Source: an archaeon
Lineage (GTDB): Archaea > Hydrothermarchaeota > Hydrothermarchaeia > JALTZZ01
Length of the DNA: 32,927 bases
Assembly: GCA_027051165.1 (NCBI GenBank)
Contig: JALTZZ010000039.1
Location: 35,519-68,445, forward strand
Direction of reading: 5' to 3'
Below the pieces are notes generated by a model, which saw only the letters and a program-made list of their open reading frames with translations, did not search any database and was not told where the DNA came from. Shown one piece after another: positions 1,643-24,200 of the stretch (within the stretch, counting starts at the first letter, position 1; each line of letters opens with the position of its first letter). The translations under genes were made by a program, and so were the position numbers.

Positions 1643-1671
1643 AATACCATGCAATGGCATGACACGAAAAA

Positions 1672-1679
1672 TTTATAAA
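1672..1679 (+). promoter_or_regulatory. TATA box for the 1808/2070 surface gene unit
   Basis: TTTATAAA lies 136 bases before the ATG at 1808. An archaeal start about 25 bases downstream would fall near 1700, giving a leader of about 105 bases that contains the long hairpin at 1721-1786. A short inverted repeat, CATGC-N4-GCATG (1649-1662), lies just upstream and could be an operator. Not tested. Confidence 0.55.
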
Positions 1680-1720: not shown

Positions 1721-1786
1721 AAGAGGGGCAAAACGGTAGAGAGTTTGCCATAGAGCTGGCAGGTTCTTTACTGTTTTTCCCCTCTT
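1721..1786 (+). promoter_or_regulatory. Long leader hairpin (29-bp stem) before a Shine-Dalgarno
   Basis: The left arm is 1721-1749, the loop 1750-1757 and the right arm 1758-1786. As plus-strand RNA the 29 positions give 23 Watson-Crick pairs, 5 G-U wobbles and 1 mismatch (C9 against U21). On the other strand the five wobbles would be C-A clashes, so the fold favours RNA made from the plus strand. It is followed after 6 bases by GGAGGTGA (1793-1800) and the ATG at 1808. The same layout with unrelated sequence recurs at 12187-12260. The T-run after the right arm also allows a terminator or attenuator role. Confidence 0.75.
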
Positions 1787-1807: not shown

Positions 1808-2014
1808 ATGGTAAAAAGTAATATTATGCGGGCAAAGTTTGTGTATGTGCTGGTTTTTGTTCCGGTAGCGATTAGCAGTGTATGTGCAGAGGTTGTTGAC
1901 AGCGGTGGCGATGTTGACTGGCATACCTCAATAGCCTTTGACTCAAATAGAAATCCGCACATAAGCTACTACGATGATTCGAACAGTTATCTGAAGCACG
2001 CTTACACTCACTAA
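1808..2014 (+). CDS. Short secreted protein, probably a truncated repeat protein
   Basis: This 68-residue ORF has a strong ribosome binding site (GGAGGTGA, 7-base spacer) and a clear signal peptide (KFVYVLVFVPVAISSVCAEV, cleavage probably after the Ala near residue 27). The mature part is one copy of a motif seen in large secreted repeat proteins: DWHTSIAFDSNRNPHISYYD. In those proteins the motif occurs many times; here the frame ends at TAA after a single copy. I see a gene cut short, or a deletion that joined a 5' end to the next gene. The big ORF starting at 2070 lies only 55 bases downstream and has its own signal peptide, so this ORF might also act as a leader peptide in a shared transcript. 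Function is unknown. Confidence 0.6.
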   Translation: MVKSNIMRAKFVYVLVFVPVAISSVCAEVVDSGGDVDWHTSIAFDSNRNPHISYYDDSNSYLKHAYTH

Positions 2015-2069: not shown

Positions 2070-5000
2070 TTGTGGGCATCAATATTGAGTAGTATTTCGT
2101 TCGTTTTCGTCCTTCTCGCTCTCCTCAACATCGCAGGAGCCCTGCCTCTGAGCTCATGTGGTGTAATAGAATCTCCCGGCTACTACACCTTAGTTAGCGA
2201 TATAACAAACACCACAACATCAATTTGCTTCTGGATAAGGGCGAGCAACGTCACCATAGATGGCAACGCACATGTTCTTCTCGGCTCGCCCTCAGGTATC
2301 GGGATGCTTATCGGCTCAAATCAGGTAAAAGCCATAAATATAACCATAGAGAACATTTCTCTTGAGGGCTGGTCTACCGGAATTTCCGTGAAGCAAGGTG
2401 AAAATGTGAGAATATATAACGCAAAGATTGAGAACGGCACAGATGGCATTTCCTTAGGAGACCCGCTAAGGAGCAGCAGCTCCATTACAATAGACAACTG
2501 CACCCTGAAAAACAACATAGATTATGGTATAACCATAGGCTACAATATTGAGAATATAACAATTAAAGACTCCGTAATAATATATAGCTACCGTGGTATA
2601 TCCTATGGGGGTAGCAGCTACTATCCCAACATCACCGTTTACAACAACTTCTTCAACACAACGCTGGATGCGGTTGAATCCCTTGTGAACTTCTATGGAA
2701 TATTTAACACAACAAAACGGGCTGGAATTAACATAATCGGCGGTAGCTACATAGGTGGTAATTACTGGGGGAGAACAGATGGAAACGGCTTCAGCGACAC
2801 CTGCATAGACACCGATGATGACGGAATATGCGATTCTCCTTCTTACTACCAGATAAACAGCATGAGCTACGACCATCTTCCATTAGCCGGCGCTGGTGTA
2901 GCACCTCCGCCTATTGAGGAATATCAGATTTCAGGCAAAATCTACTATTCTGGAAACAGAAGTGGCATTATCTACATAGAGGTGCTCTACTCCTGTGACC
3001 CCTTTGCAGCACCGCTTTTCTTTACAAACATCTCATCTCCCGGAGATTACACCATAAACGTAACAAGTGGGAGCTACTATGTGAGAGCTTTCATGGATGC
3101 AAATGGAAATTTGAGCTACGATGCAGGCGAGCCTTACGGCATGGCGATAAACAAAAGCACTTGTGCAGATGCGGATTTGATAAACATCTTTAATGCAGGA
3201 GTTTCCGGTGTGGACATAACCATCTACGAGGCTGAGAGCACACCTCCATTAGTTTACATAATATTGCCTCAAAACAAAAGCTACAACACCACCAGCATTC
3301 CCATTGAGGTTTCTGCCATGGACGATACGGGCATAGATACCGTAATTGCCGAGCTTGATGGGGTAAACATAACCCTGAGCTACTCAGCTGGGCTTTACAG
3401 GGCTACCGCCACAGGGCTTGGAGAGGGAATGCACCACCTCAAAGTATATGCAAACGACACCTTTGGAAACGTGAATTCAAGCGAGGAAGTCTACTTCAGC
3501 GTTGACACCACTCTGCCAAGCTTAACCTTTGTTGCTCCTACGCCAGCGAATGGCACGCTGATGAACGCAAGAAATGCAACCTGGATATACATAAATGTAA
3601 CTGCCGATGAGCCTCTGAGCGGAGCTTGGCTGGAATACTGGAACGAAAGGATTCATGCCAACATAAGCCTCAACGGCTCTCTGAGAAACTGGCACGGCAA
3701 TTTTTCCCCTGCAGATGGTGCCTACTACTACAGAGCTTGGGGCAACGACAGTGCTGGAAATAAAAACGCTACAGGGATCAGATTTATATGGATTGACACA
3801 ACGCTACCTAACATAACCATTTATTCTCCACGGAACACAACCTACACTACGAGTGATGTTGGACTCAACCTCTCAGCCAGCGAGCCAGTCTCAGCATGGT
3901 GGTACTCCTTGGACAGAGGGGCAAATGTAAGCTTTACTCCAAACACGACTCTTCAAAACCTTGGAGATGGCTTGCACCTACTTGAAGTTTATGCAAGAGA
4001 CCCTGCTGGAAACACGGGTAACGCTAAGGTTGTTTTCACAGTAGCTCTTCCCGATATAACACCTCCTCTCCTGAGCTTTGTTTCTCCCACCCCCGAAAAC
4101 GGCTCTATTGTAAATACGAGCTACATTTATGTGAACGTAACCTCAAGCGAACCTCTCTCTCAGGCTGTGCTTGAGTGGAACGGCGCCAACTATACGATGT
4201 ACGGTTCTGGTGTAAACTGGCATCGCAACTTCACAATATACTATCCTGGATACTACCACGCTACCTTCAGGGTGCACGGCAGAGATGTGAGTGGAAACTG
4301 GGGCTCCACCGAGAAGAGGTTAATAATTGTGAGAATCTCCAGAATAGATGGATGCACAGTAATAGGATATCCCGGTGTTTACACCCTTACCAAAGATATA
4401 GTAAATTCTACAAGCAGCATGTGCATCTGGATTCTGAGCAGTGATGTTGTGATAGAAGGAGCATCGCACGCCATAGATGGTGTGCAAAACGTGAACTCCA
4501 AGGGAATATATGTTTACAACTCCTCCGGAAGGCTGAGAAATATAACGGTAAGAAATTTAACACTGACAGACTGGGATTACGGCATCTATATATATCGAGC
4601 AGAGGACAGCCTTATTGAGAAGATATCTGCTTCAGACAACACCGTGGGTGCACATCTAACTGGAGTGCAGAACATAACCCTTCAGGATAGCACCTTTACA
4701 CCCAAGTCAGGCGGAGACGGAGTCTATCTGAGCGGTTCAAATTGCACCATAAAAAACAACGCCTTCCTCAACACAGCCTACGCCCTGCGCCTCTATAGAG
4801 CATCAGAAAACTCAATACACAACAACGTTGTTGCTGCTGCTACGGGCGGCTACGGCATATACCTATCCTCCTCCCCATCTAACACATTGAGGAACAATCA
4901 GCTGGTAAATGGAAGCTACGGCATTTATTTGACCTCGTCTCTGAAGAATTTCATTCTGGAAAATGGAATTTCCTCTGCTCAGTATGGAATTTACCTTGAA

Positions 5001-8000
5001 AACTCTGGGAACTGCACACTGCACAACAACATCTTAGACTCAAGCTTCCGGGCACACATCTACCTCAACGCCTCTGGATATTCAGATATTGCGAGAAACA
5101 TCTTAGAGAACTGGACTGATGGTATAGAAACACACAATTCACCTCATCTCAGTGTAATAAACAACACCGCTAGAGAACTGCAGAAATTCCTCAGCATATA
5201 CAACTCCAGCGATTCCTATGTGATCAACAATACAGTCACCTACATTGAGGATGCGCTTGAGGTTTACAATTCTTCCAGACTGGATATAAGCCACAATATC
5301 TTTATAAGCAACTTTATTTTCTCCACAGGAATCCTTATGGAGAATTCTAATGACAGCACAATACACACCAATAGAATAGAGGAGTTTGAAATTGCAGTGG
5401 AACTCTTCAAGTCTTATGGAAATCTGATATTCAACAACCTATTCAACATCTCTGCTGTGGCAGATAACGGAAACAACCAGTGGAACACAACAAAGAGGAC
5501 AGGGGTTAACATAGTAGGTGGTCCATACATAGGCGGGAACTACTGGGCACTGCCGGACGGCACTGGATACAGCGACGCATGCACAGATAGCGATGCAGAT
5601 GGAATCTGCGACCTCCCATACACCACTGGAAATGTGATTGACTACCTGCCCCTCGCAAGATACGACACTCAGCCGCCGCAAATAGAAATAATAGCACCTT
5701 CACAGATTGAGAAGGGCAGCAACTTCGTGCTAAACATAACAATAACAGACAGAAATCCCTCTGAGTACAACGTAACAGGGAATGGCAGTTTGATAGCCAG
5801 TGGAGGCTATATCTCCGGCACACCGATAATTCTAAATCAGCTCTATGGGTTAGACTATTTTGATACTGGAGACCTGAGCTATGAAGTTTGTGCCAACGAC
5901 AGCTACAACAACTCCAATTGCACCTCAGTTGTTGTTAGAGTTGTGGATACCACACCGCCAAGCATAACACTCTATTCTCCACAGAATATCACCTATTTCA
6001 CAGATATCATTGATCTTAAAGTCTCAGCCAGCGAGCCAGTCTCAGCATGGTGGTACTCCTTAGACGGAGGGGCAAATGTAAGCTTTACACCGAATATAAC
6101 AATAAATGTTGCACCCTCCCGAAGCCACACTCTCACAATCTATGCCAGGGATTTAAGTGGAAATGTGGGGAAGGTGAAGGTGGTATTTACCGTCGCAAAC
6201 CTCATTAGAGGGTGCATGCAGATTTCAGCACCTGGCACATATTTTGTAGTTTCGGATATACTGAACTCTTCTGCAGAAAAGTGCGTAGTAATAAGCTCTG
6301 GAGACGTGATTTTGGAGGGTGAAGGGCATGTAATAGATGGAAGAGGAGGAGACTACGGAATTTACATCTCTCCCTCACAGGGACGGCTTGAGAATGTCAC
6401 AATCAGGAATCTAACACTCTCTGAGTGGGAGTATGGGGCTTATGTCAGTGAAGTAGACAACAGCACCTTTTCAAACCTCAGCATAGAGAATGGCATCCAC
6501 GGGATGGAAGTGTGGTATGGAGACAACAACACCTTTGCAGGAATTACTTTCCTGAACAACTACGATGGTATAGGTATGTATGCAGGAGATTCAAACGTCC
6601 TCGCACACATATATGTTGAATGTTCGCCAATGCACAATGGCCCAGGTGTTTGGCTGGATCACAGCAACTACAATTTCCTGTGGAATATAAGTGTGACCTC
6701 TTGCAACGATGGAATTATCCTGGGATATTCATCTCAAAATACCCTGAGGAGCAACTCAATGATGAGCAACACCCACAACTTTGGAGTTCTTGGCGATAGA
6801 GCGGAGCATTTCCGTAACAACATAACCACAACAAATCTCGTTGAGGGAAAGCCTATCTATTATCTCCTTGACCTCTCGGGAGCCCAAGTAGTTGCAAACG
6901 CGGGCTACGTAGGGCTTGTGAACTGCTCGGATATTAGGGTAATGGACACAAGGCTCACCAAAAACTATCAGGGGGTCCTGCTTGTGGACTCCACAAACAT
7001 AACAGTTTCAAATGCGACTCTATCTCAGAACCGGTATGGGATTTATATCCGCGGGGGCTCCAACTCCACAATTGTCAAATCCACGATAGAGCACAACAGC
7101 TATGCGGGTATATACACAGACAGCTCTCCTTCTAATTACCTTATCTACAACAACCTTCTCAACAACAGTCTCAATGTGTTCAATGGAGGCAGAAACAACC
7201 ACTGGAACACCACAAAGCAGAAGGGCAGAAGCATAGTTAACGGCCCATTTATAGGAGGAAACTACTGGGGCAAGCCAGATGGCAGGGGCTACAGCGACAC
7301 ATGCTCAGATAATAATGGAGATGGAATATGCGACTCCCCCTATACCCTTGGCACTTATGTAGTAGACTACTTACCTTTAACCTTTGAAGTTAAGCCACCC
7401 GAAATAAATATAATATCTCCGCAGAGCAGAGAATACACCTCTCCACCCTTGATAAATATCTCCACCATGGATTTAAGTGGCATCTCTTTAGCTACTGTTG
7501 AGGTTGACAATAGGGTTAATATCACCCTTAGTCTTATCAACGGCTATTATCTTGGCAACCTCTCTCCCCTATGGCCCGGGAAGCATCTCCTCAGGATATA
7601 CGTCTGGGACAGCTTAGGAAATGGGAACTCCACCCATGTTGCATTTAGCTTGAAGTCGGCTTCTCACGCAAAGGCTCACAAAAACCTAAGCTCCGGAAAG
7701 AGAGAGGTAGTAAACGAAACCCTGGGCAACACCTCTGTTGAGCTTGAGATTGCCCCTCTGGTCAATGATAGCGTTTTTATAAGCGTAAATGAGAGCACAA
7801 ATGTGAGCCAGCTTGCAAATACAACGAATGAGGAGTTTTCAGCCTTTGCAATAGCGAACAACGCTCAAGCTATAGGCAGATTTGTCAGAATTGAGGTTAA
7901 CGGGAGCAGAATAAATAACACAGCCAATCTGAGCTATGTAATTGTAAAGCTCCACTACACAACAGCAGACCTTGACAAAAATGGTGATGGCGACTATAGT

Positions 8001-9005
8001 GATCCCGGTGATATAGACCCGAGAACTCTGCACTTTTACAGATACTGCCCAGATACGGGCACCTGGGATGAGGTTCCCCATGGTCGCGGCTGGGTGTGCG
8101 GAAATGTGGAAGTGTTCAATAGCAGCGTTAACCTATCGGGTAGATACGTGTGGGCAAACTTAAGCCACCTTAGCGTCTTTGGAATAGCTGGTAAAGTAGT
8201 AACACAAGAAGTTATCGTAAGTGTTGGTGGCGAAGGAGGAACACCCGAGATTGTAGCAAAGACATTCAACGAAATAACTAAAAAACTGCTGGAGGAAATA
8301 TTCAAGGCAAAGAACTTGATCTACAGAACCTTCGTAGAAGTGCCTAAGCAAGCCTTGGCAAGCTTGCTCAGCATAGCAGATAAAACAAAGCTCTATCCGT
8401 TCTTTGAGGAGCTCAAAGATATAGTAAAGAAGGAGCCGGAGAAATTAGAGGGGGACATATACGAGATAACAGCAGAGCAAGTGCTCAGCAAATACACATG
8501 GGTGCCGAGGGTAATAATAGCACGCGGCGACTTGGAGGTTGACAGCTACGCAGCATTAGCACTTGCAAAAGCAAAGGGTGCACCAATACTGTTAACTAAG
8601 CCTGATGAGCTGCCAGAAGCAACGCTTAAGGCAATAGAGAAGCTCAAGCCAAAGGAGATAATAATTGTCGGCGGACCAAAGGCGGTTAGCGAAGAAGTAG
8701 AAGCTAAGCTTATGGAATACGCCAAAGTAACAAGATTGTGGGGAGCTACAAGAATAGAGACGAGCGTTGAAATTGCAAAGCAGTTTGCAAAGCCGAAGTA
8801 TATTGTGATCGCTAACTGGAGCTCAAGCGAGAAAGCGGCTTATATAGCTTATCTATATAAAGCTCCCGTGCTCTATGTAAAGGGTAGAGAGGTGCCAAAC
8901 GTCGTCGAGGAATACATTAAAGAGAAACTTGAAGAATATCCAAAACCAAAGATAGTTTTTGTTGACATAAGCAGAGAAGCTAAGAGCAAAATAGAGAATT
9001 TGTAA
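2070..9005 (+). CDS. Giant surface protein: three NosD-like beta-helix blocks, Ig-like spacers, CW_2-type C-terminus
   Basis: The start is TTG at 2070 with GAGGGGG at 2056-2062, and it opens a signal peptide (FVFVLLALLNIAGA) cut near residue 24. Three blocks each begin with a C-x-VI-x-x-PG-x-Y-like motif, run through beta-helix repeats (NITI..., GIY...), and end with GGNYW(G/A) and an acidic D-x-DGDGICD-like loop that looks calcium binding; the GGNYW motifs fall near residues 229, 1155 and 1729. Ig-like or Big domains (DTTLPSLTFVAPTP and similar) fill about 395-760, 1190-1380 and 1775-1860. A PGF-pre-PGF-like segment (about 1860-2060, LHFYRYCPDTGTWDEVPHGR) is followed by a helical linker and two putative cell-wall-binding-2 repeats (about 2147-2311, IIARGDLEVDSYAALALAKA, IIIVGGPKAVSEEVEAKL). 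There is no C-terminal membrane helix. N-x-S/T sequons are abundant. The gene is visibly richer in G+C than its neighbours, which suggests a separate origin. Adhesion or surface-layer association is inferred. Confidence 0.88.
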   Translation: MWASILSSISFVFVLLALLNIAGALPLSSCGVIESPGYYTLVSDITNTTTSICFWIRASNVTIDGNAHVLLGSPSGIGMLIGSNQVKAINITIENISLEGWSTGISVKQGENVRIYNAKIENGTDGISLGDPLRSSSSITIDNCTLKNNIDYGITIGYNIENITIKDSVIIYSYRGISYGGSSYYPNITVYNNFFNTTLDAVESLVNFYGIFNTTKRAGINIIGGSYIGGNYWGRTDGNGFSDTCIDTDDDGICDSPSYYQINSMSYDHLPLAGAGVAPPPIEEYQISGKIYYSGNRSGIIYIEVLYSCDPFAAPLFFTNISSPGDYTINVTSGSYYVRAFMDANGNLSYDAGEPYGMAINKSTCADADLINIFNAGVSGVDITIYEAESTPPLVYIILPQNKSYNTTSIPIEVSAMDDTGIDTVIAELDGVNITLSYSAGLYRATATGLGEGMHHLKVYANDTFGNVNSSEEVYFSVDTTLPSLTFVAPTPANGTLMNARNATWIYINVTADEPLSGAWLEYWNERIHANISLNGSLRNWHGNFSPADGAYYYRAWGNDSAGNKNATGIRFIWIDTTLPNITIYSPRNTTYTTSDVGLNLSASEPVSAWWYSLDRGANVSFTPNTTLQNLGDGLHLLEVYARDPAGNTGNAKVVFTVALPDITPPLLSFVSPTPENGSIVNTSYIYVNVTSSEPLSQAVLEWNGANYTMYGSGVNWHRNFTIYYPGYYHATFRVHGRDVSGNWGSTEKRLIIVRISRIDGCTVIGYPGVYTLTKDIVNSTSSMCIWILSSDVVIEGASHAIDGVQNVNSKGIYVYNSSGRLRNITVRNLTLTDWDYGIYIYRAEDSLIEKISASDNTVGAHLTGVQNITLQDSTFTPKSGGDGVYLSGSNCTIKNNAFLNTAYALRLYRASENSIHNNVVAAATGGYGIYLSSSPSNTLRNNQLVNGSYGIYLTSSLKNFILENGISSAQYGIYLENSGNCTLHNNILDSSFRAHIYLNASGYSDIARNILENWTDGIETHNSPHLSVINNTARELQKFLSIYNSSDSYVINNTVTYIEDALEVYNSSRLDISHNIFISNFIFSTGILMENSNDSTIHTNRIEEFEIAVELFKSYGNLIFNNLFNISAVADNGNNQWNTTKRTGVNIVGGPYIGGNYWALPDGTGYSDACTDSDADGICDLPYTTGNVIDYLPLARYDTQPPQIEIIAPSQIEKGSNFVLNITITDRNPSEYNVTGNGSLIASGGYISGTPIILNQLYGLDYFDTGDLSYEVCANDSYNNSNCTSVVVRVVDTTPPSITLYSPQNITYFTDIIDLKVSASEPVSAWWYSLDGGANVSFTPNITINVAPSRSHTLTIYARDLSGNVGKVKVVFTVANLIRGCMQISAPGTYFVVSDILNSSAEKCVVISSGDVILEGEGHVIDGRGGDYGIYISPSQGRLENVTIRNLTLSEWEYGAYVSEVDNSTFSNLSIENGIHGMEVWYGDNNTFAGITFLNNYDGIGMYAGDSNVLAHIYVECSPMHNGPGVWLDHSNYNFLWNISVTSCNDGIILGYSSQNTLRSNSMMSNTHNFGVLGDRAEHFRNNITTTNLVEGKPIYYLLDLSGAQVVANAGYVGLVNCSDIRVMDTRLTKNYQGVLLVDSTNITVSNATLSQNRYGIYIRGGSNSTIVKSTIEHNSYAGIYTDSSPSNYLIYNNLLNNSLNVFNGGRNNHWNTTKQKGRSIVNGPFIGGNYWGKPDGRGYSDTCSDNNGDGICDSPYTLGTYVVDYLPLTFEVKPPEINIISPQSREYTSPPLINISTMDLSGISLATVEVDNRVNITLSLINGYYLGNLSPLWPGKHLLRIYVWDSLGNGNSTHVAFSLKSASHAKAHKNLSSGKREVVNETLGNTSVELEIAPLVNDSVFISVNESTNVSQLANTTNEEFSAFAIANNAQAIGRFVRIEVNGSRINNTANLSYVIVKLHYTTADLDKNGDGDYSDPGDIDPRTLHFYRYCPDTGTWDEVPHGRGWVCGNVEVFNSSVNLSGRYVWANLSHLSVFGIAGKVVTQEVIVSVGGEGGTPEIVAKTFNEITKKLLEEIFKAKNLIYRTFVEVPKQALASLLSIADKTKLYPFFEELKDIVKKEPEKLEGDIYEITAEQVLSKYTWVPRVIIARGDLEVDSYAALALAKAKGAPILLTKPDELPEATLKAIEKLKPKEIIIVGGPKAVSEEVEAKLMEYAKVTRLWGATRIETSVEIAKQFAKPKYIVIANWSSSEKAAYIAYLYKAPVLYVKGREVPNVVEEYIKEKLEEYPKPKIVFVDISREAKSKIENL
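3871..3937 (+). repeat. Internal near-identical repeat, copy 1
   Basis: About 67 bases starting TCTCAGCCAGCGAGCC are nearly identical to 6022-6088. Both copies encode SASEPVSAWWYSLD-x-GANVSF, part of an Ig-like spacer domain. The surrounding domains are much more diverged, so this patch suggests recent duplication or gene conversion. Confidence 0.85.
6022..6088 (+). repeat. Internal near-identical repeat, copy 2
   Basis: Second copy of the patch at 3871-3937, in the same frame. It differs at only a few bases, including TTGGACAGA against TTAGACGGA. Confidence 0.85.
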
Positions 9006-9034: not shown

Positions 9035-9064
9035 TTACTACTTTGTTATAAGTATTATGTTTTT

Positions 9065-9098
9065 AACCCCCTTGTGAGATGAGTAATGCAAGGAGGTT
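9065..9098 (+). repeat. 34-base palindromic element, copy A
   Basis: AACCCCCTTG (9065-9074), a 14-base middle, then CAAGGAGGTT (9089-9098): arms pair with one mismatch. It lies 60 bases after the stop at 9005. Copy D (31183-31216) matches at roughly 25 of 34 positions including part of the loop (ATGAGT). A related but weaker element is at 25186-25218 and a hairpin with the same CCCTTGC/GCAAGGG core closes the insertion sequence at 10208-10235. It may be an IS end, a small non-autonomous element or a 3'-end signal. Confidence 0.6.
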
Positions 9099-9202
9099 AG
9101 TTTTTCTATAAAAACAAATTTTTCAAGAGAAACTCTTCATTCTTATAAAAGGACGTTTGCATTAGAAACGAGGCAAAATTTTCCAGGCGAAACGCAGAAA
9201 AA

Positions 9203-9236
9203 TTTATATAGGAGAAGGGGTATTAACCCCTTCTCC
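9203..9236 (+). promoter_or_regulatory. TATA box and 11-bp hairpin before the transposase
   Basis: TTTATATA at 9203-9210 is followed directly by GGAGAAGGGGT-ATTA-ACCCCTTCTCC (9211-9236), a perfect 11-bp inverted repeat with a 4-base loop, ending one base before the GTG at 9238. A transcript would start at about the end of the repeat, so it is more likely a DNA site (operator or transposase binding) than an RNA hairpin. The half TATTAACCCCTT resembles the reverse complement of the right end (TTATAACCCCTT at 10230-10241). Confidence 0.55.
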
Positions 9237-9237
9237 G

Positions 9238-10224
9238 GTGATAGGCATGAAACAGCCACTAATTCCATATTTAGCTCATCCTACGTGGATAATCTTCAAT
9301 AACATCATAAATCTTTTTGACAGAAAAACGGTAAAGAAGGAGATGACTAAAGCAGGGATAAAACCTGTCAAGAGAGCGGCATTGATGATTAGAATAACGC
9401 TAACAGCGATATTCTTTGAGAGAAGCGTAACAGAGGTAGTAGAAGAGCTTAAAAGGAATGAAGAGCTTAGAAGAGTCGTTAGAGTTGCAGAAGTCCCTTC
9501 TACAGATGAGATATACAGCTTCCTCAGCAGATTCAGCGAGGATCAGTTCATAAAGCTTTTATCAGTTATAAACAGGTTTATTAAGAGGAGCTCGGTAAAG
9601 CTCCTCGATACTACCGATGTAAATCTGTTCAGAGAGCAAAAAATATAAATGGTGCTATGCTTTAGGCAAGGGGTTCTATAAAGGCTACAAGCTCGCTTTA
9701 GTCGTGGAATATCCTTCTTTAAAGCCCATAGGGGTTTATCTATACGAAAGATCGCCAAACGACTCAAAACTCTTCCTTAAAATCGTTAAAGACCTTAAGA
9801 AAAGAAGAGTTTTGAGAAAAGGTGATAAAATAATAGCCGATAAAGGATTCTGTGCTCAGAAAAACTACTGGAAAAGCATTATGTGGTATAAAATTCTCCC
9901 TTTCATATTTCCTAAGAGAAATCTGAACGTTAAAAGGATTAAGGGAAGATTTACTTACCCCTTTAAAGCCCTTAAGGATAAAGAGACTTTATGATAAACT
10001 CTTTTCCTCTTTCAAGAGCTTCCTGAACTCTTGGGAGAATTTTAAAGCCATTAGGAGCGTTGTCGAAGATGTGTTTAAGGTTCTCAAAAATTCTCTCTTT
10101 AAAGAACTTACACAGATATTCTAAGCGCTCTGTTATAAAGTTCGCAGCCTTGAGTGTCCTTTTATTAGGCATATCTATGGGATTTAACAGCAAGGAGAAA
10201 CTCCAAGCCCTTGCTGAGTCTTGA
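9238..10224 (+). pseudogene. IS4-family DDE transposase, broken in four frames
   Basis: Joining four frames gives a transposase of about 325 residues. Piece 1 (9238-9640) carries the N-terminal region and LLDTTDVNLF with the first catalytic Asp. Piece 2 (about 9645-9990) has WCYALGKGFYKGYKLALVVE, the DSKLF segment and IIADKGFC with the second Asp. Piece 3 (about 9990-10110) has AIRSVVEDVFKVLK with the expected Glu of the R-x3-E-x6-K signature. Piece 4 (about 10110-10224) has SKRSVIKFAALSVLLLGISM and ends at the original stop TGA 10222-10224. The first break is one extra base in an A-run near 9641. Start is GTG 9238 or ATG 9247. All three catalytic residues survive, so decay is recent and due to frameshifts rather than substitutions. 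No intact copy is in this window to supply it in trans. Confidence 0.82.
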
Positions 10225-10235
10225 CTCTGCAAGGG
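10208..10235. repeat. Palindrome at the IS right end, copy B of the CCCTTG family
   Basis: CCCTTGC-T-GAGTC-TT-GACTC-T-GCAAGGG is an almost perfect 28-base palindrome with one T-T clash. It overlaps the last codons of the transposase and is followed by GTTATAACATTTTTG. It shares the CCCTTG/CAAGGG core with the palindromes at 9065 and 31183. Confidence 0.65.
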
Positions 10236-10253
10236 GTTATAACATTTTTGAAA

Positions 10254-11960: not shown

Positions 11961-12123
11961 TCGCCGCCTGCTACAACGTCTTTTGCACATCTTTTCTGTT
12001 ACTTTTTTTATCTTTTATCTAAATTCACAACAGAGCAAAACCGAATAATAAACTTTAATAAAGACCAATATAGTTGTGCTAATATCCTGTTATTTGGAGA
12101 GAATCTGGAACTATGATGGCAGG

Positions 12124-12132
12124 TTTTATATA
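12124..12132 (+). promoter_or_regulatory. TATA box of the 4288-residue surface protein gene
   Basis: TTTATATAA at 12124-12132 lies about 145 bases before the TTG start at 12277. A start near 12155 would give a leader of about 120 bases containing the hairpin at 12187-12260. The rest of the stretch 11961-12276 is AT-rich and shows no gene. Confidence 0.6.
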
Positions 12133-12186
12133 AGTTTTTCAAGGTTAATATTTTAAGTAACAAGAATAATAATATACAAAAGATGC

Positions 12187-12260
12187 ATCCTCGCAGATGA
12201 AGGTTATAAACAGCAGATCATTTATGTGATCTGTTGCTTATAACCTTCTTTTGCGGGGAT
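12187..12260 (+). promoter_or_regulatory. Long leader hairpin (34-bp stem) before a Shine-Dalgarno
   Basis: The left arm is 12187-12220, the loop TTTATG is 12221-12226 and the right arm is 12227-12260. As plus-strand RNA the arms give 29 Watson-Crick pairs, 3 G-U wobbles and 2 mismatches over 34 positions. Four bases later comes GGAGGT (12265-12270), then the TTG start at 12277. Geometry and placement match the hairpin at 1721-1786 although the sequences are unrelated. In archaea no known riboswitch of this form comes to mind. The hairpin could hold the leader open, bind a protein or be cut by an RNase. Confidence 0.8.
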
Positions 12261-12276
12261 TACTGGAGGTATTGAG

Positions 12277-15200
12277 TTGAGAAACTCCTCCAATAAAAAT
12301 TTTCGACATATATTTTTAAATTTCTTGGACTTGGGAAAGAAATTTTTCATGATTCTTCTGCTTCTATTATCCACCCCGGTTTATGCTTCAAATCTTCCTC
12401 ACGATATTTTTAAAGGAGAGAAGATCCCGGTAAAGGAAGGTAAGCATTCTCCTGCCTATATTGTTGGTCTAAATTATACAGAAGAGGATTTAAAAAAGGA
12501 AATCGAGTTAAAATACACATACAACATGAATACATTTTTGGAAGATTTAAATAGGGATCCCGTAAAAATTTACTATTATATAAGAAACAACTTCGATTAT
12601 CAGCCATATTATGGAAGTTTGAAAGGTGCGGAAGGGACTTTTCTTGAAAGATCTGGAAACGATTTAGATTTAGCAAACTTGCTTGTAGAACTCTACAGAG
12701 AGCTTGGAATTCCAACAAAATATGTTCATGGCAATATTATAGTTTCAAAAGAATCCCTTTCAAGGATTTTTGGTGTGGATATCAACAATGTTGAGAGGGT
12801 TTTGAGATCTGCAATGATTCCATACAACAAAAGCGGGGCAAACTATGTAGTAGATCACTTCTGGGTAGAAGCTTACATAAATGAAACGTGGATACCTCTC
12901 GATCCTTCCTTTAAGTTCTATGAGTATGTAGAACCGTCTATAACTATGGAAGAACTTGGACTCAACACAACAAATCTCTCATATAGAGTTACAGGGGTGA
13001 TAAAGACTAATAATAATACTATAACTACCTCACCCATAACATACGATAAATTCCCAGAGTTATCTTTTGATTTTCTATATGGATTGGGCGGTAACATAAC
13101 AGATATCGTAGAAAAACAAATTGGAGACCTATCTAAACAAAGTATATATGGTATTATAAAAAAATATGATAAATTCAGGAAAAACTTCTTGGGAAGCTGG
13201 AGAATTGTTCCAGAAGACAAGTCTGCCTTTCCAGAGAGGCTACCTTATGAGGTGCACAGTGTCATAGAGGAGTTCTCTTCAATTCCAGAAAAGTATAGGT
13301 ATAAAATAAAGATAAATGTTGACAGTGCAGGACTGGAAGTAGTGTTTAATACAAGTAAAGTTGCGGGGAAAAGAATAGTTCTCACATATGTTCCTTATAA
13401 CGAAAGCGATGCTGATATAATAAACTCTTATGAAAGTATAGAGGACGTTCCAATAGATAAAGTATATATATCGCCAGTATTAATGGTGGATGGTTATCCC
13501 AAAGCCTTTGGAACGAAATCAAGACTCGGTGAAAAAGCAAATCTTACGATAAGTATTTTTATTGGAGAAAAATTCTTAGGAAATGACACAACAAAGATAA
13601 CATTGGGGGGAGATTATGCAGTAGGAATGAACATGCAAAGAGTAAGTGAGCAGCTTCTTAGCTATAGGATAAACAGGTTAAAAATAACGAATTTTCTGTT
13701 TGAGAATGGATTTAGGAATATTACGAGGGAAGAGATTGTTGGAGAAATACTAAACATAGTTTCTTTGATATACTGGTATAAACTTGACAGCTATGCGGAG
13801 AGAATTGCTGGTTATTCCAAGATAAGGTTCTTTAGGGCACCTTCAATACTTGTTGTTGGAAGTGCATACAACGTTAGCAAAAATAGGATGAAATTGATTG
13901 GAATGTTCATAGATATACACAGAGATTACTATGTGCCTATTGCAAACGATTCAGAGGCTGAAAAAAGATTTATGATAATGACAGGATTAAAAGGTGCTGA
14001 ACTCGAAGCTGAAGTCATAGAGAAGCTTACAGGAGTTCCAGCCATCTCTACTGGAAAGATATTCAGCATTGCAAGAGATTTGAATATACCTATATACATC
14101 GTGAACTCCACAAATGTAAATACTACTCTTCCCCTCCTCAACATAACCATTGAAGATAAAAGTGCGATAAAAAAAGCGGTTTCCAAGGGATTGACTGTCG
14201 TAGTTCCAGCAAGAAATGTTGTTATTAATCGCTGGAAGGGCACGGGTTTCTACATGATAAACGAGTCAAGCGGTGCAATGGCTTACATGATAAGCGGTGG
14301 AATAAGGGGAGGACTTTCAATTTCGGAGTACATAAAAAAACAATTAACCTTAAAGAAAAGACTTGAAAACTTGTATGATAATCTTGCTAAAACAGAAGCT
14401 GGCAAAAGGTTTTTGAAAAAGCTTCCCGGAGTTAATATTCTCGTTAGTCAAGCCGAGAATATTATAACAGCGGTTTTTGAGCTTTATTATGCAGAGCCGT
14501 GTGAAAGAGCAATGATAGCATCTCAAAAGATTGTAGATGTTTTGGTAGATTTAATTGGTGATGTAATATCGGATACCGTTGGCATGGAGATAACCTTAGC
14601 TGAAATTACGGTCTCAAGAACAGTAATAAACGATTTCAGCATAGATTTCATGGATACAATAAAAGATGCCATTAAATCGTATGCAAAGGAAAAGCTTGGT
14701 ATAGACAATTTGCTTGCTAATTGTCCGCAACCATCTATTCTTATTCGTGAGCGGAAAGAACCAATAAAAATTCCTCTTGGGGAAAAAGTAACATTTAGAG
14801 CATTTTTAATTTGTAACTATTGGGCTATGAGCGGAGAAAAGGCATATAATCCTTTAATATGGGTTATACCAAAAGAGGAGAATAGACCTTACGATCTCAT
14901 AACGAGAATAGAGCCGCACTCGGGAGCAACGACTTATGGATGCGACAGGGTTATGGTAACTATAGATACGAGTTTTATTGAAAAATGGGCAAAAAGAGGA
15001 CATGGAGAGAAAGCAATGGACATTCTCCTTAGCGAAATCGGAAAGGACAATACTGGTCTCTACATCATATCAGTAATATCAAACGATCCATCCAAGCCAG
15101 TAGAATATGCTGCGGTTCGGTTTGTAATTACTCAAAACAAAAGCATTGTTAAGGTAGACGAAAGTGCATGGCTATCTTACAAAAAGGGTGGGAGTGATAA

Positions 15201-18200
15201 GGACTATGTAAAAGTTTTAAATCTTGGTCTATCTCCGATAAACTTGTCTGTGAAGCCAGAAAAGATATCAAAATTGGGGATTGAGATAAAATATCCAAAA
15301 GTAATAGATCGTGGGAGTAGCGGATTTATTGAAATAACTTCAAAAGGAGCTCCTGTAGGAGATTGGAAAGCAAAAATATCTGTTATTGCTAAAATTGGAA
15401 ACGAAACAATAGTAAAAGATGTATCGATTAGAGTTCATGTATATAAAGAGGATAAAAACAAAAATGATCAACCAGAACCCAGACCTGGAAACGATCATCC
15501 AGATGATAACAGCGATGTTCCAAGAACGATACTATCAAAAGAAAACAACATTTATACAATCCTCAGAGAAGGTATAATCAATAATTTAAGCGTTGCCTAT
15601 GATATATATAAGTTAATCAATTATTTCAATAACATAACACCAGTTTATACTAAGAATGAATCTTTCAATTTAGTGGAGAACGTTTCAATGATATATAATG
15701 CTCTTTCTGCAAAACTAAATGTTAAAGAGTTCGAAGAGAATGCTGCAAGCGTTGCTGTGCTTAAGAGAGGGTTCTATGTGGGAGCATCTAACATCCTTTC
15801 TTCAGCAAGAATACCCCATACAATTGTTGAGGATTTTGATCCCGTTAAGCTTGCAAAGACAAAGAAGGTGTTAATAATACCATCTGGTGGTCTTTTTGGA
15901 GCAAAAACTAAAATTTTTAAGGAAAAGTTAAGAAAATATTTGGAAGAGGGAGGAAATATTATTGTTTTCTCCCAGCAGTTTGGTAGAGATTATGAAATAC
16001 TTCCTCTCTCTCCAAGTGGGGTTGGCTGGGCTGAGGATCAGATGTGCTTCATAAACTCTCTCTATGTAACTCAGGATAATCCAATATTCTCCTCTATAAC
16101 AAGAAACATTATAAGTGAGGAAGTAGATGGATACTTTGACAGGTATCCAGCAACATCTGTTTCCCTTTTAAGCAGGACGAAGAATCACTTCCCTGCAATG
16201 CTCATGTATCCATACGGTAAAGGATACGTTATTATCTCAACTCTTTATTCTGACTGGAAGAGTGAACAGAGAGAACCTTCTGAATTTATAACCTCGGTAG
16301 TTAGGGACATGGTTGCATATATAACATTAAACAAAGATGTTTATGAGATAGGATTAAAAAAAGCTTGGCGGGGTCTATACCTTCCTGAAAACAATTATAC
16401 AATTCCAGTAAAAATAGATAATCCCGCCAAAGAAAGTGCTGATAAAATAAAATTCGTGCTTATATCTCCAAGTGGTAAAATATCTAAGATATTTGCTGTA
16501 AATGAAACCATAAAAAATAAAACATCGAAAATTGTTAATATAACAATTCCAAAGGATTACTTCTCTCCAGAGCTTGGAATATGGATCCTTGACTACATGC
16601 TCATGAAAGGTGGGGATATCATATATACAAAATACAATGCAAAGGGAATTTCTTTAAACCTATACAAGGACAATGATTATTTATTTAACTATGCTGGAAA
16701 GGAGAAGTATCTTGTATGGGCAACATCGAGTAAAGAAGAAGCAAAGCTTGGAGATACCATAAATATAACATTCCATATAATAAACAAGGATAATAAATAT
16801 TTGAACGGAAGTCTCGGAATCGGAGATCACGTTGTTAGATACGGCTGGACCGTGCATGAAGCTAAAAACGTAAGCATTCCTCCAAATTCCTACAAAAAAT
16901 TTGTTTTTGAATTAAAAATGCCGCCAAAATTATACGATCATACTCTATATAATATAAAAGGAGCTAATGGCATAACTTTCTACTTAGGATTTTATAAAGA
17001 TAGATCTGCATATAAAGGAGAAGGAGACTTCATTGATGCATTTCTGCGTGCTGAAAAGGGGGTAAAGATAAGACTACCTAATATATATGCTGAAGCAGAG
17101 TTCGCAGATAAAAAAAGAGAATATAAACCCGGAGAAATATTAAAGCTAAACATCAACCTCAAAAACAACGATGCTACAGACTGGGAGCTTAAGGTAAAAG
17201 CAGGTGTGTATAAGTATAAGCGTGGTTCTATAGTTGCAAATTCAACTGTGGTCAATATTTCAGCCGGCGAAACGAAGAACATAAAAATTGATTTAAAACT
17301 TCCGAACACCTTAGAACCGGGATCGTATAGTGTGGAGATAGATGTTTTTGAAGAAAGGAGTAATGCAAAAATAGCTTCTGATTATTTAACCTTTTCAAGA
17401 GAAGAGCCAAAGGTTGTAGTTAAACCTTCTTTATTGTTCAACCCTCCATATCTAAACCTTGATATAAACATAGAAAATAACATAACCCTTTCAAACCCTA
17501 TTCTTTATATTATTCATGAAATTTCAGAATATGCTGGAAATTCAAGTATAAAAACATACAAATACAATCTTACATTTAAAAACTACAGAAACACAACAAG
17601 ATTGCCAATAAGCTTAGATGAGGAAAAGTTTGCAAAGCACGTTTTCAGATACAGTATTGTGGAGGGAGCGGAGAAATATAAACCGCTTTCTGCAGGTTCC
17701 CTTACATTTGACAGAAAAATAGTGGTATACTACCCAAAGGTTTCTTTCAGCGGCATTGGAGGGGATATGCTAAATCTATCTGTAACCTTAGAAAATCCAA
17801 ACCAAATTTCCGAAACTTTTGACGTAAACATCTCAATTCCCGCAATTCCTTACACTAACGTATCCACGATAAAGATTGATAAAAAGACAAAAATAACTCT
17901 GAACTATAATATAAATGTTCCAAAGCTATCTAATGGTAGCTATTCTATTGTAGTAAAGGTTCAGAAAAATAACACATATATAGAGAAAAAAACAAGATTT
18001 TATATCAAAGATTCATATCTTTATGGTTACATACCCTATTCTCTATACTCCGCGAGAGATAATGCCACCGCATACGTTATTAATAAAGGCGGTGTTGATA
18101 CCACGGCAAATGCAACGTTAGGTATATGCAGAGGTAACGCTTTTCTGGCTAAAGAGAATTATATCCTAAAAATACCAGCCAATAAAAGAATTGCCATGAA

Positions 18201-21200
18201 TATAACAATTCCACAAAATATTACTCCGGGATTTTTCCTCTGTTTGAATGTAACGGATCTTAGAAATATGAAGAAGTTTGAAAAGAAAAGTAGGCTTTAC
18301 TTAAGAGGGATTAAGTTAGAGGCTGAATTAACGGAACCTATATATGCTGGAGAAGAAGCGATTTTATCTATTAAGAATGTAGGTGGAATAAGCGATAGAG
18401 CAAATATAACGGTTAAGTTGTTTAAACCATTCTTCTACAATCCAATTGTTAAAAAAGAATACAAGGATGTTCCACTTAACCTCGGTAGAGCTATAAATCT
18501 CTCTCTGCCAATACCAGATAACTTGGGTGGGGATTACAAACTGGTGATAGATGCTGATGGAGAATATTCAACAGATTTCTTAACTCTGTGGATTAAAGTT
18601 TTAGGTTTCAATTTATCCGCGATCGTTGAAAAGAACGCATACAATGCTGGAGATTCAATTGAAGTGCTTCTTAAGAACAGCGGTGGCGGGCATAAAAATA
18701 TAACAGTTTCAGCTCATCTGAAAAATGGCAATTTATTATACGAATTAGGAAGCAAAATTGTTGAAATAGGAAAACTTGAAGAAAAGGTTGTTAGCTTCAA
18801 AATCCCAGAATACACACCTACAGGCACCTATGTTCTTTATGTTAACTATGAGGGTAAAACATATTCAAAAGTTGTAAATGTAAGTGGTCTTGAGCTTGAA
18901 ATTAGATTACAAAGAGATAGTTTTGATGTAGATGAAGGTATAAACCTAATTATAAACAACACAGGAGCTTTAAATGCAAAATTGCTGATAAACTATGCCT
19001 TATCATACTACTATAGAGGAAGCACAACCCTTGAGATTGGTGCGGGAGAGTCAAAGAACATAACATTATCCGTGCCGAAATACATTTCAAGCGGGTATTA
19101 CATTCTAAATACTGAAATTAAGGATTTAAACACAAACAGAACATTTTATGATACATTTAAAGTAAAAATAAGAGGATTTGAATTGAATATTGGAATATAT
19201 AAGACAAATATAATTACTGGTGATAATTTAACTGTCACTATTGAAAATATTGGTGGTTTAAATCTTGATCTTGATATTACTTTAAAATTAAATGATAATG
19301 TTTTAAATAAGAGTGCTAAACTATCCAAGGGAGAAAAGAGAGATTTAGTATTTCAACTGCCTCTTCTGCCAAAAGGGGAATATGATGTGGAAGTAGTAGC
19401 TCAAGATAAAGTATCAAATAGAACTTTGAAGAAGATATTTAAAATAACAGTAAGCGGATTTAGAATAGATGCAAAACTAAACAAAAGCAACTTTACATCT
19501 TTAGAAAGAATAAATGTAACATTTATAAACGAAAATCCAAACGTAGATGCAGATTGTAGTTACGGTGTCTACCTTATAGATTCTTTTGATAAAAGCTTCT
19601 ACCTTGGCAGTGGGGATATAAGAATACCCAAGAATGGAAAGAATTATACAGAGATTGATTTAAAAGAAGGACTTGCAAGCGGAAGATACAAATTAATAAT
19701 AAATTTGGTAGAGAGGAACACCGGTGAAAGATTTACTATTACAAAAGATGTGCAGATAAAAGGTATAGAAAGCAAAATCAATGTTCAAATGCCGAAGAAT
19801 GCTTTTTACGATGATCATTTAAATGTAGATGTGGATGTTGATCAGAGGGGAATTGTAAAGGTGCAGGCTGGAGAGGAAATAAAGCACTACCCCTATGGTA
19901 TAGGAAATATAGAAAAAGAAGGAGAAGACTTATGGATATTTTTCAGAGAAATGCTCGGTTTATACAAAGATGGAAAGTTGACAGCATACTACTATCCTAC
20001 ACACGAAGTTGGATGGTTCGAAAGCGACTATATACCAGCATTAGTTACAAATAGTAAAGTATTTTTAGCAGATTTCCATGGAAATCTTCTGGTATTTAAT
20101 AAAATCTCCAAATCTTGGAATATTTATAACAACTCAAATATTTTGGGATATCCAGAAATGGGATGGCATGCTGGTATAACATCCATAGAATACTACAACG
20201 GAAGTATATGGATAGGATTTTATGGAAAGGGGCTTGTAAAGCTTAATTTTGATGAAAAGAATGCAGAGGTCTATAATACATCCAACAGCTTACTACCTTC
20301 TGACTGGGTGTTTGATATTGAAAACGATGGAAAAAGTCTCTGGATTGCTACAGATAGAGGCATTGTAAGGATAGATTCTACTTGGAAAGTTTGGAGCCCA
20401 TCTCAGCTGAATGTAACTGGGATAAAGGATATAGAGATCGTAAATGGAGATGTATGGATAGCTGGTGATAAAGTTTGCAGGATGTTTGGAGAATGCTATT
20501 CCAGCCAGCTTCTGAGCAGCAGCATAGATAGAATTGTGCATGACAATGTATCTTTATGGATCATATATGCCCCATGGAGCGGTGTAGAAGGGGTAAGCAG
20601 GTTTTACTTTGGAAACAAAACATGGGTGCATGTATATAAGAACAGTAGCATTCTCGGAGACCTCATAGATATAGAGGATGGGATCTATGCTACAACGAAG
20701 TATGGTATTATAGAAGATGGAGTTAATAGAGTATTCGGACCGAGAAGTAGTATAAATGATGTATTTTATGGGGACAAAGTATATGCAAGCTCTATGTATG
20801 AAGGAATAAGCATATACGATCCGAAAAACGAAAATTGGACATTCCTCTCCTCCGGTGTGTTTAATTTTGCTGACAATATATTCTACAATGGAAAACTGAT
20901 ATTTTCAAGTAAGGATATATATGGAAGTGATGTGCTTGTAGTGTATGACTTCCAGAACGTAACCATATACAATTCATCAAACTCCCCTCTAACGTCCTCA
21001 ACCTACATACGAAGCATAACTGGAAATGAAACAACGATATATTTGGGAACGTCTAAAGGCTTGATCATATACAATATGAATAGCGGTGTTTTTACTTTGC
21101 TTAATACAGAAAATTCAAACTTAACGAACGATAATATTTATTCCATCTACTTGTATGGAAATGAGCTATGGATTGCCGACTCTTCAGGAGTTGGAGTGCT

Positions 21201-24200
21201 GAACCTTAACAGTGGGGAATATCATAGATATATAACGGACTCTTCTAAGGAAGTTTTGGCGGATGAAAACAACATATATATAATAACGAGCTCCAACAAT
21301 TTGTTGATATATGATAGAACTACTGGTAAAAAGGAAATATACAACTCAACAAAAGGTCTCTTAGAGGATTGCATCTACGATATTGACATTTTAAATAAAA
21401 AAATATTTATAACATATTGCTCCGGCAATAAGATTTCCGTTTTTGATAATAAAAACTGGAGACACCTAAACATAAGAGCACTAAGCGTTTCTGCAGGAGA
21501 AAGAAGTGTTGCATTTGGAAATAGTGGGCTTTCTATTTATGAAAGCTACAATTTTGAATATAATGTAAATCCGGGGGTAAATAAAATAATAATTGAACCA
21601 CCGCACAAAGAAGGTAAAAATATCTTCAGATTCTATATAATTTCAGAGAAAGGACAGCTACTTAACGAAACGGCGAAAGATATTTATCTCTATAAGAGGA
21701 ATATAGAAGCAAAAATTATCAGTAATAAGAACGTATATAAGAAGGGAGAAGAAGCTGATATAAAAATTTTAATAGTAAATCATGCACCAATAGCAGATAA
21801 AATTAAATTTAATTTAAGCATCGAGGGAAATATTTACACAAAGGAGGTTGAAATACCTGCTACGACTTCTTATATATATGAAGTCAAGCTTAAAGTAGAG
21901 AAAAATTTGACAGCAAAGTTATCCTTGTTAGGTAGAGAAATCCTGAAAGACATAAAAGTTGTAGAGCCCAAAGCTATTATAGATGTTGAAATACCGGAGG
22001 TTGTTTCTCTCGATCCGTTTAACGTTACAGTTTGGATAACAAACATAGGAGAGGTAGAAATAAATGTCTCTGTTGATGTAGATGGAGAGAAATTTAATAA
22101 AATAATTTTACCGGGGAATTCGGATTATATAACCAAATCCATGAAAATTTCTCAAGATAGGAACGTAACAATAAAATTGAGTGGAGATATTGAAAAAGTT
22201 TTAACAAAAACAATAATATTGGGAGAAAAAGTAGATGTAATATTCAAGCCGAAATACGTAATTTCCCAAAATGAAAATGAGATAACGGTTGATGTAGTTA
22301 ATACTGGTGTTCTTGATTCTGCCTTTAATTTATCCATATACGGAAATTATACTACTAACTTGAGCATTTATATTTCTGCAAAAGAGAATAAAACTGTTTA
22401 TATACCGGTTAATCTTTCAGAAGGAAAACATGTGCTCTTTTATAAATCAAAGTTTGGAAATGGTAGCTTCATTGTTGAAGTTGTAAGAGAAAAATTAGAT
22501 GTAAAAGCTAAGGTAGTCTCACTCGGATATGGAAAAATGAGAGCATATATTAATGTGGAAAATATTGCCCCAATAGAATTCTTTGGAGTGTTGGAGGTAA
22601 TGTCGCCAGTTTCATACAAAAAAACCAGCATCAATATTAAACCTAATGACAACAAGACGTTTATATATGAATTTGAGGGAATATTTGAAGAGAGATTACA
22701 GAACCTAACTGTAAGAATACTCAAAAATGGAAAATTGCTAATCGAGAAAGATTTCGGATTTGTAGCGAATCCCGTCTATATTGTGGCTATAAATGCTAAA
22801 GATACTTATAAAATTGGAGAGTTAATGAAAATTATGGTTGAGATATCAAATGTAGGAGATTCTATTGGAAAAGATGCATTGCTTCTTGATATACCCGGAA
22901 TATACAGAAACTATACGGAAATAACTATAAATCCTAAAGAAAATCTGAGTTTTAATTTCTCTGTAAAACTCCCAGAAGATCTTCCAACAAAAGACATGAG
23001 GATCATAGCAAGTATTGAAAATATATCTGTAGAAAAGAAATTTAAATTGACTGGTATAAATTTAACTGCACGAGCTTATTTGGACAAAGAAGTGTATTCT
23101 AAAAACGACAATCTAACAATATACTTGAACATTAGCAACAACGAAAATGTTAGTGTAGAAGGCAATATAACTATATCCTGTGGGGATATTGAAAAAGTTG
23201 GAAGTTTTATACTTAATGAGTATCAAAGTAAAATATACTCTTTCAGTCTTCCTGTTTGCGAGAGAATTTTCTACAATCTAATGCTAAATTCTGGGAGACT
23301 GATCGAGATTTCCTCTCTACCCGTCAATATTCTGCAAAACAAAACTGTTGCTGTTTATACAGATAAGAATAAATATAAAATAGGGGAGAATATGACAATA
23401 TTTGTAAACGTTGGGTCTCCAACGCTTGTTTCACTTTCGATTTTTGGGAATCAGACGATATTGGATGTAACAGATAATACATCCGTTTATATGGTTGTGC
23501 CGGATGTTCCCAGCGGAACTTATGAGATATATTACGGAATTCCCGGAGAAGGAAGTTTTGTATACTATTTTGACGTGTATTCGCCTAGCGCTAAAGTGCT
23601 CTCTTTTGTTCCGAGTAAAGATGTCTTTTACCCGGGAGAAAAGATATCATTTTATGCAAGGATATATTCTGATGAAGATATTAAAGGAAAAATAAGGATG
23701 TGGCTCTATAATAATGAAAATTCCTTAGTTGATTATGATGAAAAACTTATAAATTTGAGCAAGGGTGAGAATGTTGTAAATATTTCCACGAATTTCTCTC
23801 TCCCATCAATGGGAGATTACTTTATCCTCTATGGTATATATAGGGGTTTAAATTCCACATTAATAGCTTCAGGCATTCAAAACTTAGAAACTGCCGGTCC
23901 TTCAATTGTATCCATAATAACAGATCGTCAGAAGTATTATGAAAATGAAAACGTGACTTTTAACATTACACTTTCTGGAAATGGAAAAGCAAATATAACA
24001 ATCTACGGAAAGGAAAAAGTTTTAGAAAAGACTATAATTTTAAACAATACCAATACGCTTACATATATTATACCCGCCAGCAAAATTGAAATGTCACTAA
24101 AAGCTGTTCTTGTTTGGGGTAATAGCTCTGCTAATAGAAGTATTTTCTTAGATATCATTAATCTGCCTCCAATAGTAGATTTTAAATATGAAAAAGGTTA

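Follow-up and report, generated by a model that had tools for sequence, protein, structure and literature searches.

A long hairpin before a giant exported-protein gene

What is a nearly perfect 34-position hairpin doing just in front of the ribosome-binding site of a gene for a 4288-residue exported protein, and is its pairing a property of the RNA or of the DNA? The question is raised by the window studied here (the whole 32,927-nucleotide stretch analysed, on contig C39 of a 2.38 Mb archaeal metagenome assembly in 171 contigs), in which this hairpin, H2, is preceded by another long leader hairpin, H1 (Table 1). Our analysis places H2 in a set of three or more discrete leader RNA hairpins encoded by the host, which belongs to the class of Ca. 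Hydrothermarchaeota and Ca. Pyrohabitans.

The H2 stem proved to be as an earlier note on this DNA had described it, with 29 Watson-Crick pairs, three G-U wobbles and two clashes (one A-C and one U-U), and a gap of four nucleotides to GGAGGT. Folded as RNA, the stem alone reaches -48.8 kcal/mol (z = -8.8 to -9.5 against dinucleotide shuffles), with the antisense strand giving a weaker fold of -39.6 kcal/mol; its ungapped score is 28, whereas the best hairpins obtained on shuffling the whole window 20 times scored 11-16.5. On the 3' side there follow, in order, UACU, GGAGGU, six nucleotides and the TTG start, which lies 16 nucleotides from the stem. Within 12264-12292 of the window, the UGGAGG of this Shine-Dalgarno (SD) motif has a possible pairing partner, CCUCCA, near the beginning of the coding sequence, so that the TTG would be enclosed between them. 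Small upstream ORFs within H2 (MKVINSRSFM) were judged by eye to be chance occurrences, as they have no SD and no counterpart in H1 or in the third hairpin, H3, described below. Likewise, an intrinsic terminator was rejected: no U-tract directly follows the stem, H2 being followed by UACUGGAGGU and H3 by GAGGUG, and a terminator scan of 1600-1900 around H1 found none, though a short T-run (UUUCC) stands directly after that stem. Rfam recognises no family in the window at the gathering score; lax thresholds bring up nothing beyond sub-threshold hits to microRNA precursors, which amount to plain stems.

Table 1. Features of the two hairpin-bearing leaders and their genes in the window
Feature	Position	Strand	Basis
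Candidate BRE/TATA GAAAAATTTATAA upstream of H1	1666..1678	+	consensus match only
H1 long leader hairpin, 30 positions, 6 nt upstream of GGAGGT (1793-1798)	1721..1786	+	scan, folding
68-aa ORF with signal peptide, located behind H1 and apparently left over from a larger surface protein	1808..2014	+	
2311-aa NosD/beta-helix surface protein; own weak SD; leader without long hairpin	2070..9005	+	
Candidate archaeal TATA region, TTTTATATAAG at about 12124, alternative at 12150	12123..12150	+	consensus match only
H2 long leader hairpin, arms 12187-12220 / 12227-12260, loop TTTATG	12187..12260	+	sequence, folding
Shine-Dalgarno GGAGGT of the 4288-aa gene, outside the H2 stem, 4 nt beyond	12265..12270	+	sequence
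4288-aa exported protein: TTG start, signal segment, transglutaminase-like domain, PKD, C-terminal hydrophobic membrane anchor	12277..25143	+	

H1 comprises 24 Watson-Crick pairs, five G-U pairs and one clash, and folds with -40.7 kcal/mol. Both its reality and its position were borne out, but the intact surface-protein gene expected behind it was not found, the ORF there being only the 68-residue remnant. The NosD-type ORF begins about 60 nucleotides past this remnant, in another frame and with an SD-like GAGGGG. The region 1808-2100, in which the remnant is succeeded by the out-of-frame NosD start, might reflect decay or recombination of a surface gene, or else a junction made in assembly.

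Genome scan and a third hairpin

We scanned 140 stretches, which sum to 1.41 Mb (5% N) and cover 60% of the genome, together with the window, on both strands, using an ungapped stem score and RNALfold. H2 is the most stable simple single-stem hairpin in this sample, and second among single-stem hairpins is H3 (-46.6 kcal/mol; stretch L171, 9752-9827, contig C135), which was turned up by the scan. H1 ranks fourteenth by RNALfold, behind tRNAs, palindrome repeats and hairpins from high-GC contigs that are possibly contamination. When G-U pairs are given no advantage in scoring, only three palindrome-repeat foldbacks and an imperfect inverted repeat (in stretch L059) join H1, H2 and H3 at or above the score of H3; these foldbacks and the L059 repeat aside, H1-H3 are the longest and strongest ungapped hairpins scanned.

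H3 directly abuts GAGGTGA, with an ATG 12 nucleotides after the start of the motif opening a complete 43-codon gene (MLRGWKYIIEIIVLVVVLLVAYVFVTELMESCRKIIRPIIENL) for a membrane peptide; leader hairpin, SD, 43 codons, stop and T-rich tract thus form a compact unit. The peptide, for which no homologue was found among 24 relatives, could be a small membrane toxin or encoded by a mobile element. The unit as a whole (L171 9740-9992) sits in a repeat-broken, IS-rich stretch.

All three hairpins lie on the sense strand with the SD outside the stem, at a distance of 0 (H3), 4 (H2) or 6 (H1) nucleotides. If an SD is taken as a match of at least 5 nucleotides starting 0-7 nucleotides away, which has a probability of 0.020 at a random position, finding one at 3/3 hairpins has a chance of 0.020 cubed, or 8e-6; H1 and H2, however, prompted the question, and the independent confirmation comes from H3 alone, with p about 0.02 for one strand and 0.04 for either. 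Weaker hairpins (-22 to -35 kcal/mol) are near background in this regard, 10 of about 1800 having an SD and a start, compared with 8 when the opposite strand is read.

H1, H2 and H3 are each present only once in the whole genome, and a mobile foldback or MITE family is ruled out by this lack of related copies. The earlier note had proposed an inverted-repeat scan and named mobile foldbacks as the outcome that would tell against it; over about 60% of the genome that outcome was absent and a third independent SD-abutting case emerged. Its view that shape and position, rather than sequence, are what recur gains strength from this third unrelated case and from the absence of copies of any of the three. 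The broader pattern it drew (TATA, about 30 bases, hairpin, GGAGGT, surface-protein start) stands in part. The placement of the hairpin relative to the SD holds, while the TATA spacing is one of several readings, as there are multiple TATA-like boxes; these consensus matches put the predicted transcription starts 0 to about 60 nucleotides upstream of the stems. A surface-protein start is too narrow a description for a 68-residue remnant at H1 and a 43-residue peptide at H3; what the products behind all three share is an N-terminal hydrophobic (signal or membrane) segment.

The mismatch pattern distinguishes RNA from DNA

Pooled over H1-H3, the sense strand carries 15 G-U to 1 A-C (binomial p = 2.6e-4), as against 205 G-U to 222 A-C in 74 control hairpins from the same genome (Fisher p = 2e-4). 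The controls were picked by a strand-symmetric score, and the sense strand of H1-H3 was set independently, by the SD. Even when random triples of controls are each read on their own better strand, an equal skew arises in just 0.1% of draws. A palindrome kept as DNA should gather G-T and A-C about equally; hence the 15:1 ratio is of the RNA type, and the skew on the sense strand implies that the pairing is maintained as sense RNA and not as DNA. The pairing of H1-H3 is thus maintained in the sense transcript, and this is the main new evidence of our analysis. Part of the skew could come from strand-biased mutation where transcription occurs, but that bias would need to be extreme. For uncultured genomes, the G-U/A-C ratio offers a cheap means of deciding whether a hairpin is of the RNA kind or a DNA palindrome.

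Other palindromes and inverted repeats

The same genome harbors further repeats with hairpin potential. The palindrome ATCCTCACAGCTGTGAGGAT, with TTTATAA-like boxes on either side, is present in 104 copies confined to 21 of the 141 stretches (e.g. L052 1269-6464, L171 8755-8880 and the window at about 32489), with 82 copies outside long ORFs and some within foldbacks of more than 100 nucleotides; it looks like a network of operators that overlap TATA boxes and belong to a mobile element or provirus. Decayed DDE-transposase insertion sequences with internal-hairpin ends (AACCCCCTTG...CAAGGAGGTTA) are found at 9060-10250 of the window and at L171 7420-8560, and account for the scan hairpins in L053 and L098. 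Finally, the imperfect inverted repeat at L059 9770-9878 spans 109 nucleotides, consists of repeated TTACAA / TGCAACAATT motifs and has no SD. It scores 22 with six clashes, and its wear (8 A-C, 3 G-U) is opposite to that of H1-H3; it may encode an antisense RNA or serve as an array of operators.

Distribution among genes and relatives

Across 48 ORFs of at least 700 codons with readable leaders, the median leader MFE is -14.0 kcal/mol, the extremes being the leader of H2 at -49.4 and the next at -29.7 kcal/mol; the gene behind H2 alone in this set carries a long hairpin, and the leaders of the other large exported-protein genes of that size have none. This comparison led us to reject a general trait of giant or exported genes. 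The earlier idea of a leader stabilising very long mRNAs as such likewise fails, since other ORFs of 1000-1400 residues lack the hairpin and a 43-codon gene has one. Distant homologues of the 4288-residue gene within the same class (39-41% identity) have no long hairpin before the SD, and neither do 24 further loci, the relatives searched including no other genome of the host's family. The first 400 residues of the protein are unmatched in both same-order genomes.

Functional interpretation

By analogy with bacterial leaders, we favor, with a probability of about 0.45, the reading that H1-H3 are 5' stability clamps of the ompA/aprE kind that would block 5'-to-3' decay by beta-CASP enzymes. A nearly perfect stem of 30-36 positions in the 5' leader, ending 0-6 nucleotides from an exposed SD, would obstruct a 5'-to-3' beta-CASP exonuclease of the RNase J family and would also prevent the leader from folding onto the ribosome site; the outcome would be a longer-lived downstream mRNA, loading at a fixed rate, or both. 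Among the marks of a 5' mRNA-stabilising stem-loop, a stable stem in the presumed 5' leader, an SD left unpaired by it and pairing maintained as RNA are found. This reading is favored because the genome encodes an RNase J-family protein (TIGR00649, 466 bits against a cut-off of 400) and aCPSF1, because in Sulfolobus a beta-CASP enzyme has been shown to degrade mRNA 5'-to-3' (PMC3792030), and because in Bacillus a long mRNA is protected when a hairpin or ribosome site lies ahead of it, close to the 5' end (PMC3997798). The identity of the opposing nuclease is presumptive, as are the point at which the transcript would begin, the gain in half-life and any regulation. More tentatively, H1-H3 might exemplify a class defined by shape alone, in which unrelated hairpins of about 30 base pairs at a fixed distance from the SD of selected envelope-protein genes would be sensed through their shape, whatever their sequence, by the machinery of decay or initiation. 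With three independent cases from a single genome and a strand-specific mismatch signature, long SD-abutting leader hairpins in archaea become testable as a class.

A stem 0-6 nucleotides from the SD would touch the area where the ribosome lands, and one ending 0-4 nucleotides before it would fall inside the 30S footprint or at its border and could equally lower initiation. The main rival to the clamp, which we regard as possible though rather doubtful, is accordingly a translational brake, whereby a stem in the 30S landing area limits the initiation of membrane or secreted products that would be harmful in excess; unwinding of the stem might fall to a helicase or protein, and at the 43-residue peptide the arrangement would resemble type I toxin leaders. 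The distances of the stems from the SD and the N-terminal hydrophobic segment common to the three products fit this proposal, and there is a precedent in gene IX of phage f1, where a hairpin ending just upstream of the start is thought to block initiation (PMC12548453). However, the SD is within none of the stems; on this ground simple masking of the ribosome site by the stem itself, as one way of controlling ribosome access, is not the design. The additional pairing open to the SD at H2 would also suit a brake, but it is no stronger than in shuffles (z -0.69). Moreover, the stability of some 30 pairs exceeds what an ordinary switch allows, and no antisense RNA or partner was seen. The stem may act on stability or, from its neighbouring position, limit ribosome access.

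Neutral or short-lived inverted duplications, generated by template switching and located before starts by chance, would readily yield three unrelated sequences without relatives in IS-rich stretches, as well as the absence of the hairpin from distant homologues. They would not be expected to show mismatches at 15:1 where controls show 205:222, nor to lie at an SD on the matching strand in 3/3 cases, and we consider them unlikely. A DNA-level element, be it a large operator palindrome, a site for attachment or recombination, or a mobile-element terminus, is suggested by the other palindromes of the genome, which resemble operators or IS ends; we hold it to be less likely still in view of the one-strand, RNA-type mismatch pattern, the lack of shared sequence and copies among the three hairpins, and their fixed position relative to the SD. 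Processing by a double-strand-specific RNase or other RNA-binding protein, leaving the SD-bearing 3' part as the working mRNA, suits the stem length, which falls in the range of RNase III substrates, but is the most improbable of all, for neither RNase III (PF00636) nor dsrm (PF00035) domains are matched in this genome, rated 100% complete and encoding RNase J, while controls matched in 8 and 9 genomes, and the bulge-helix-bulge of the archaeal splicing endonuclease is not apparent by eye in the folds; the RNase III-like processing raised by the earlier note therefore seems unlikely.

Relationship to known leader stem-loops

The control of mRNA life by 5' stem-loops is established in bacteria. 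The ompA and papA leaders of Escherichia coli have, like H1-H3, a 5' stem-loop with an exposed SD downstream; their stems are shorter and work against RNase E/RppH. In contrast, H1-H3 are archaeal, extend over 30-36 positions, lie 0-6 nucleotides from the SD and are of putative function. PMC3997798 presents the ompA and papA stem-loops, on the references cited there, as stabilising the mRNAs of surface proteins, and also cites work on the aprE leader of Bacillus subtilis, in which a 5' stem-loop together with the ribosome-binding site stabilises the mRNA of an exported protein. The latter function was demonstrated, and in a bacterium, while for H1-H3 it is only inferred. The aprE stem is also shorter than those of H1-H3. 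Type I toxin leaders resemble H3 in placing a strong stem ahead of a hydrophobic peptide, here of 43 residues; they differ in that no antisense RNA is known for our hairpins, that the SD is unburied and that H2 precedes a protein of 4288 residues. Searches of an open-access library yielded no long SD-abutting leader hairpins described for archaea. Hence, while 5' leader stem-loops as such are known, those described here differ from them in their length of 30-36 positions, their abutment on the SD, the absence of any sequence relationship between them and their archaeal host.
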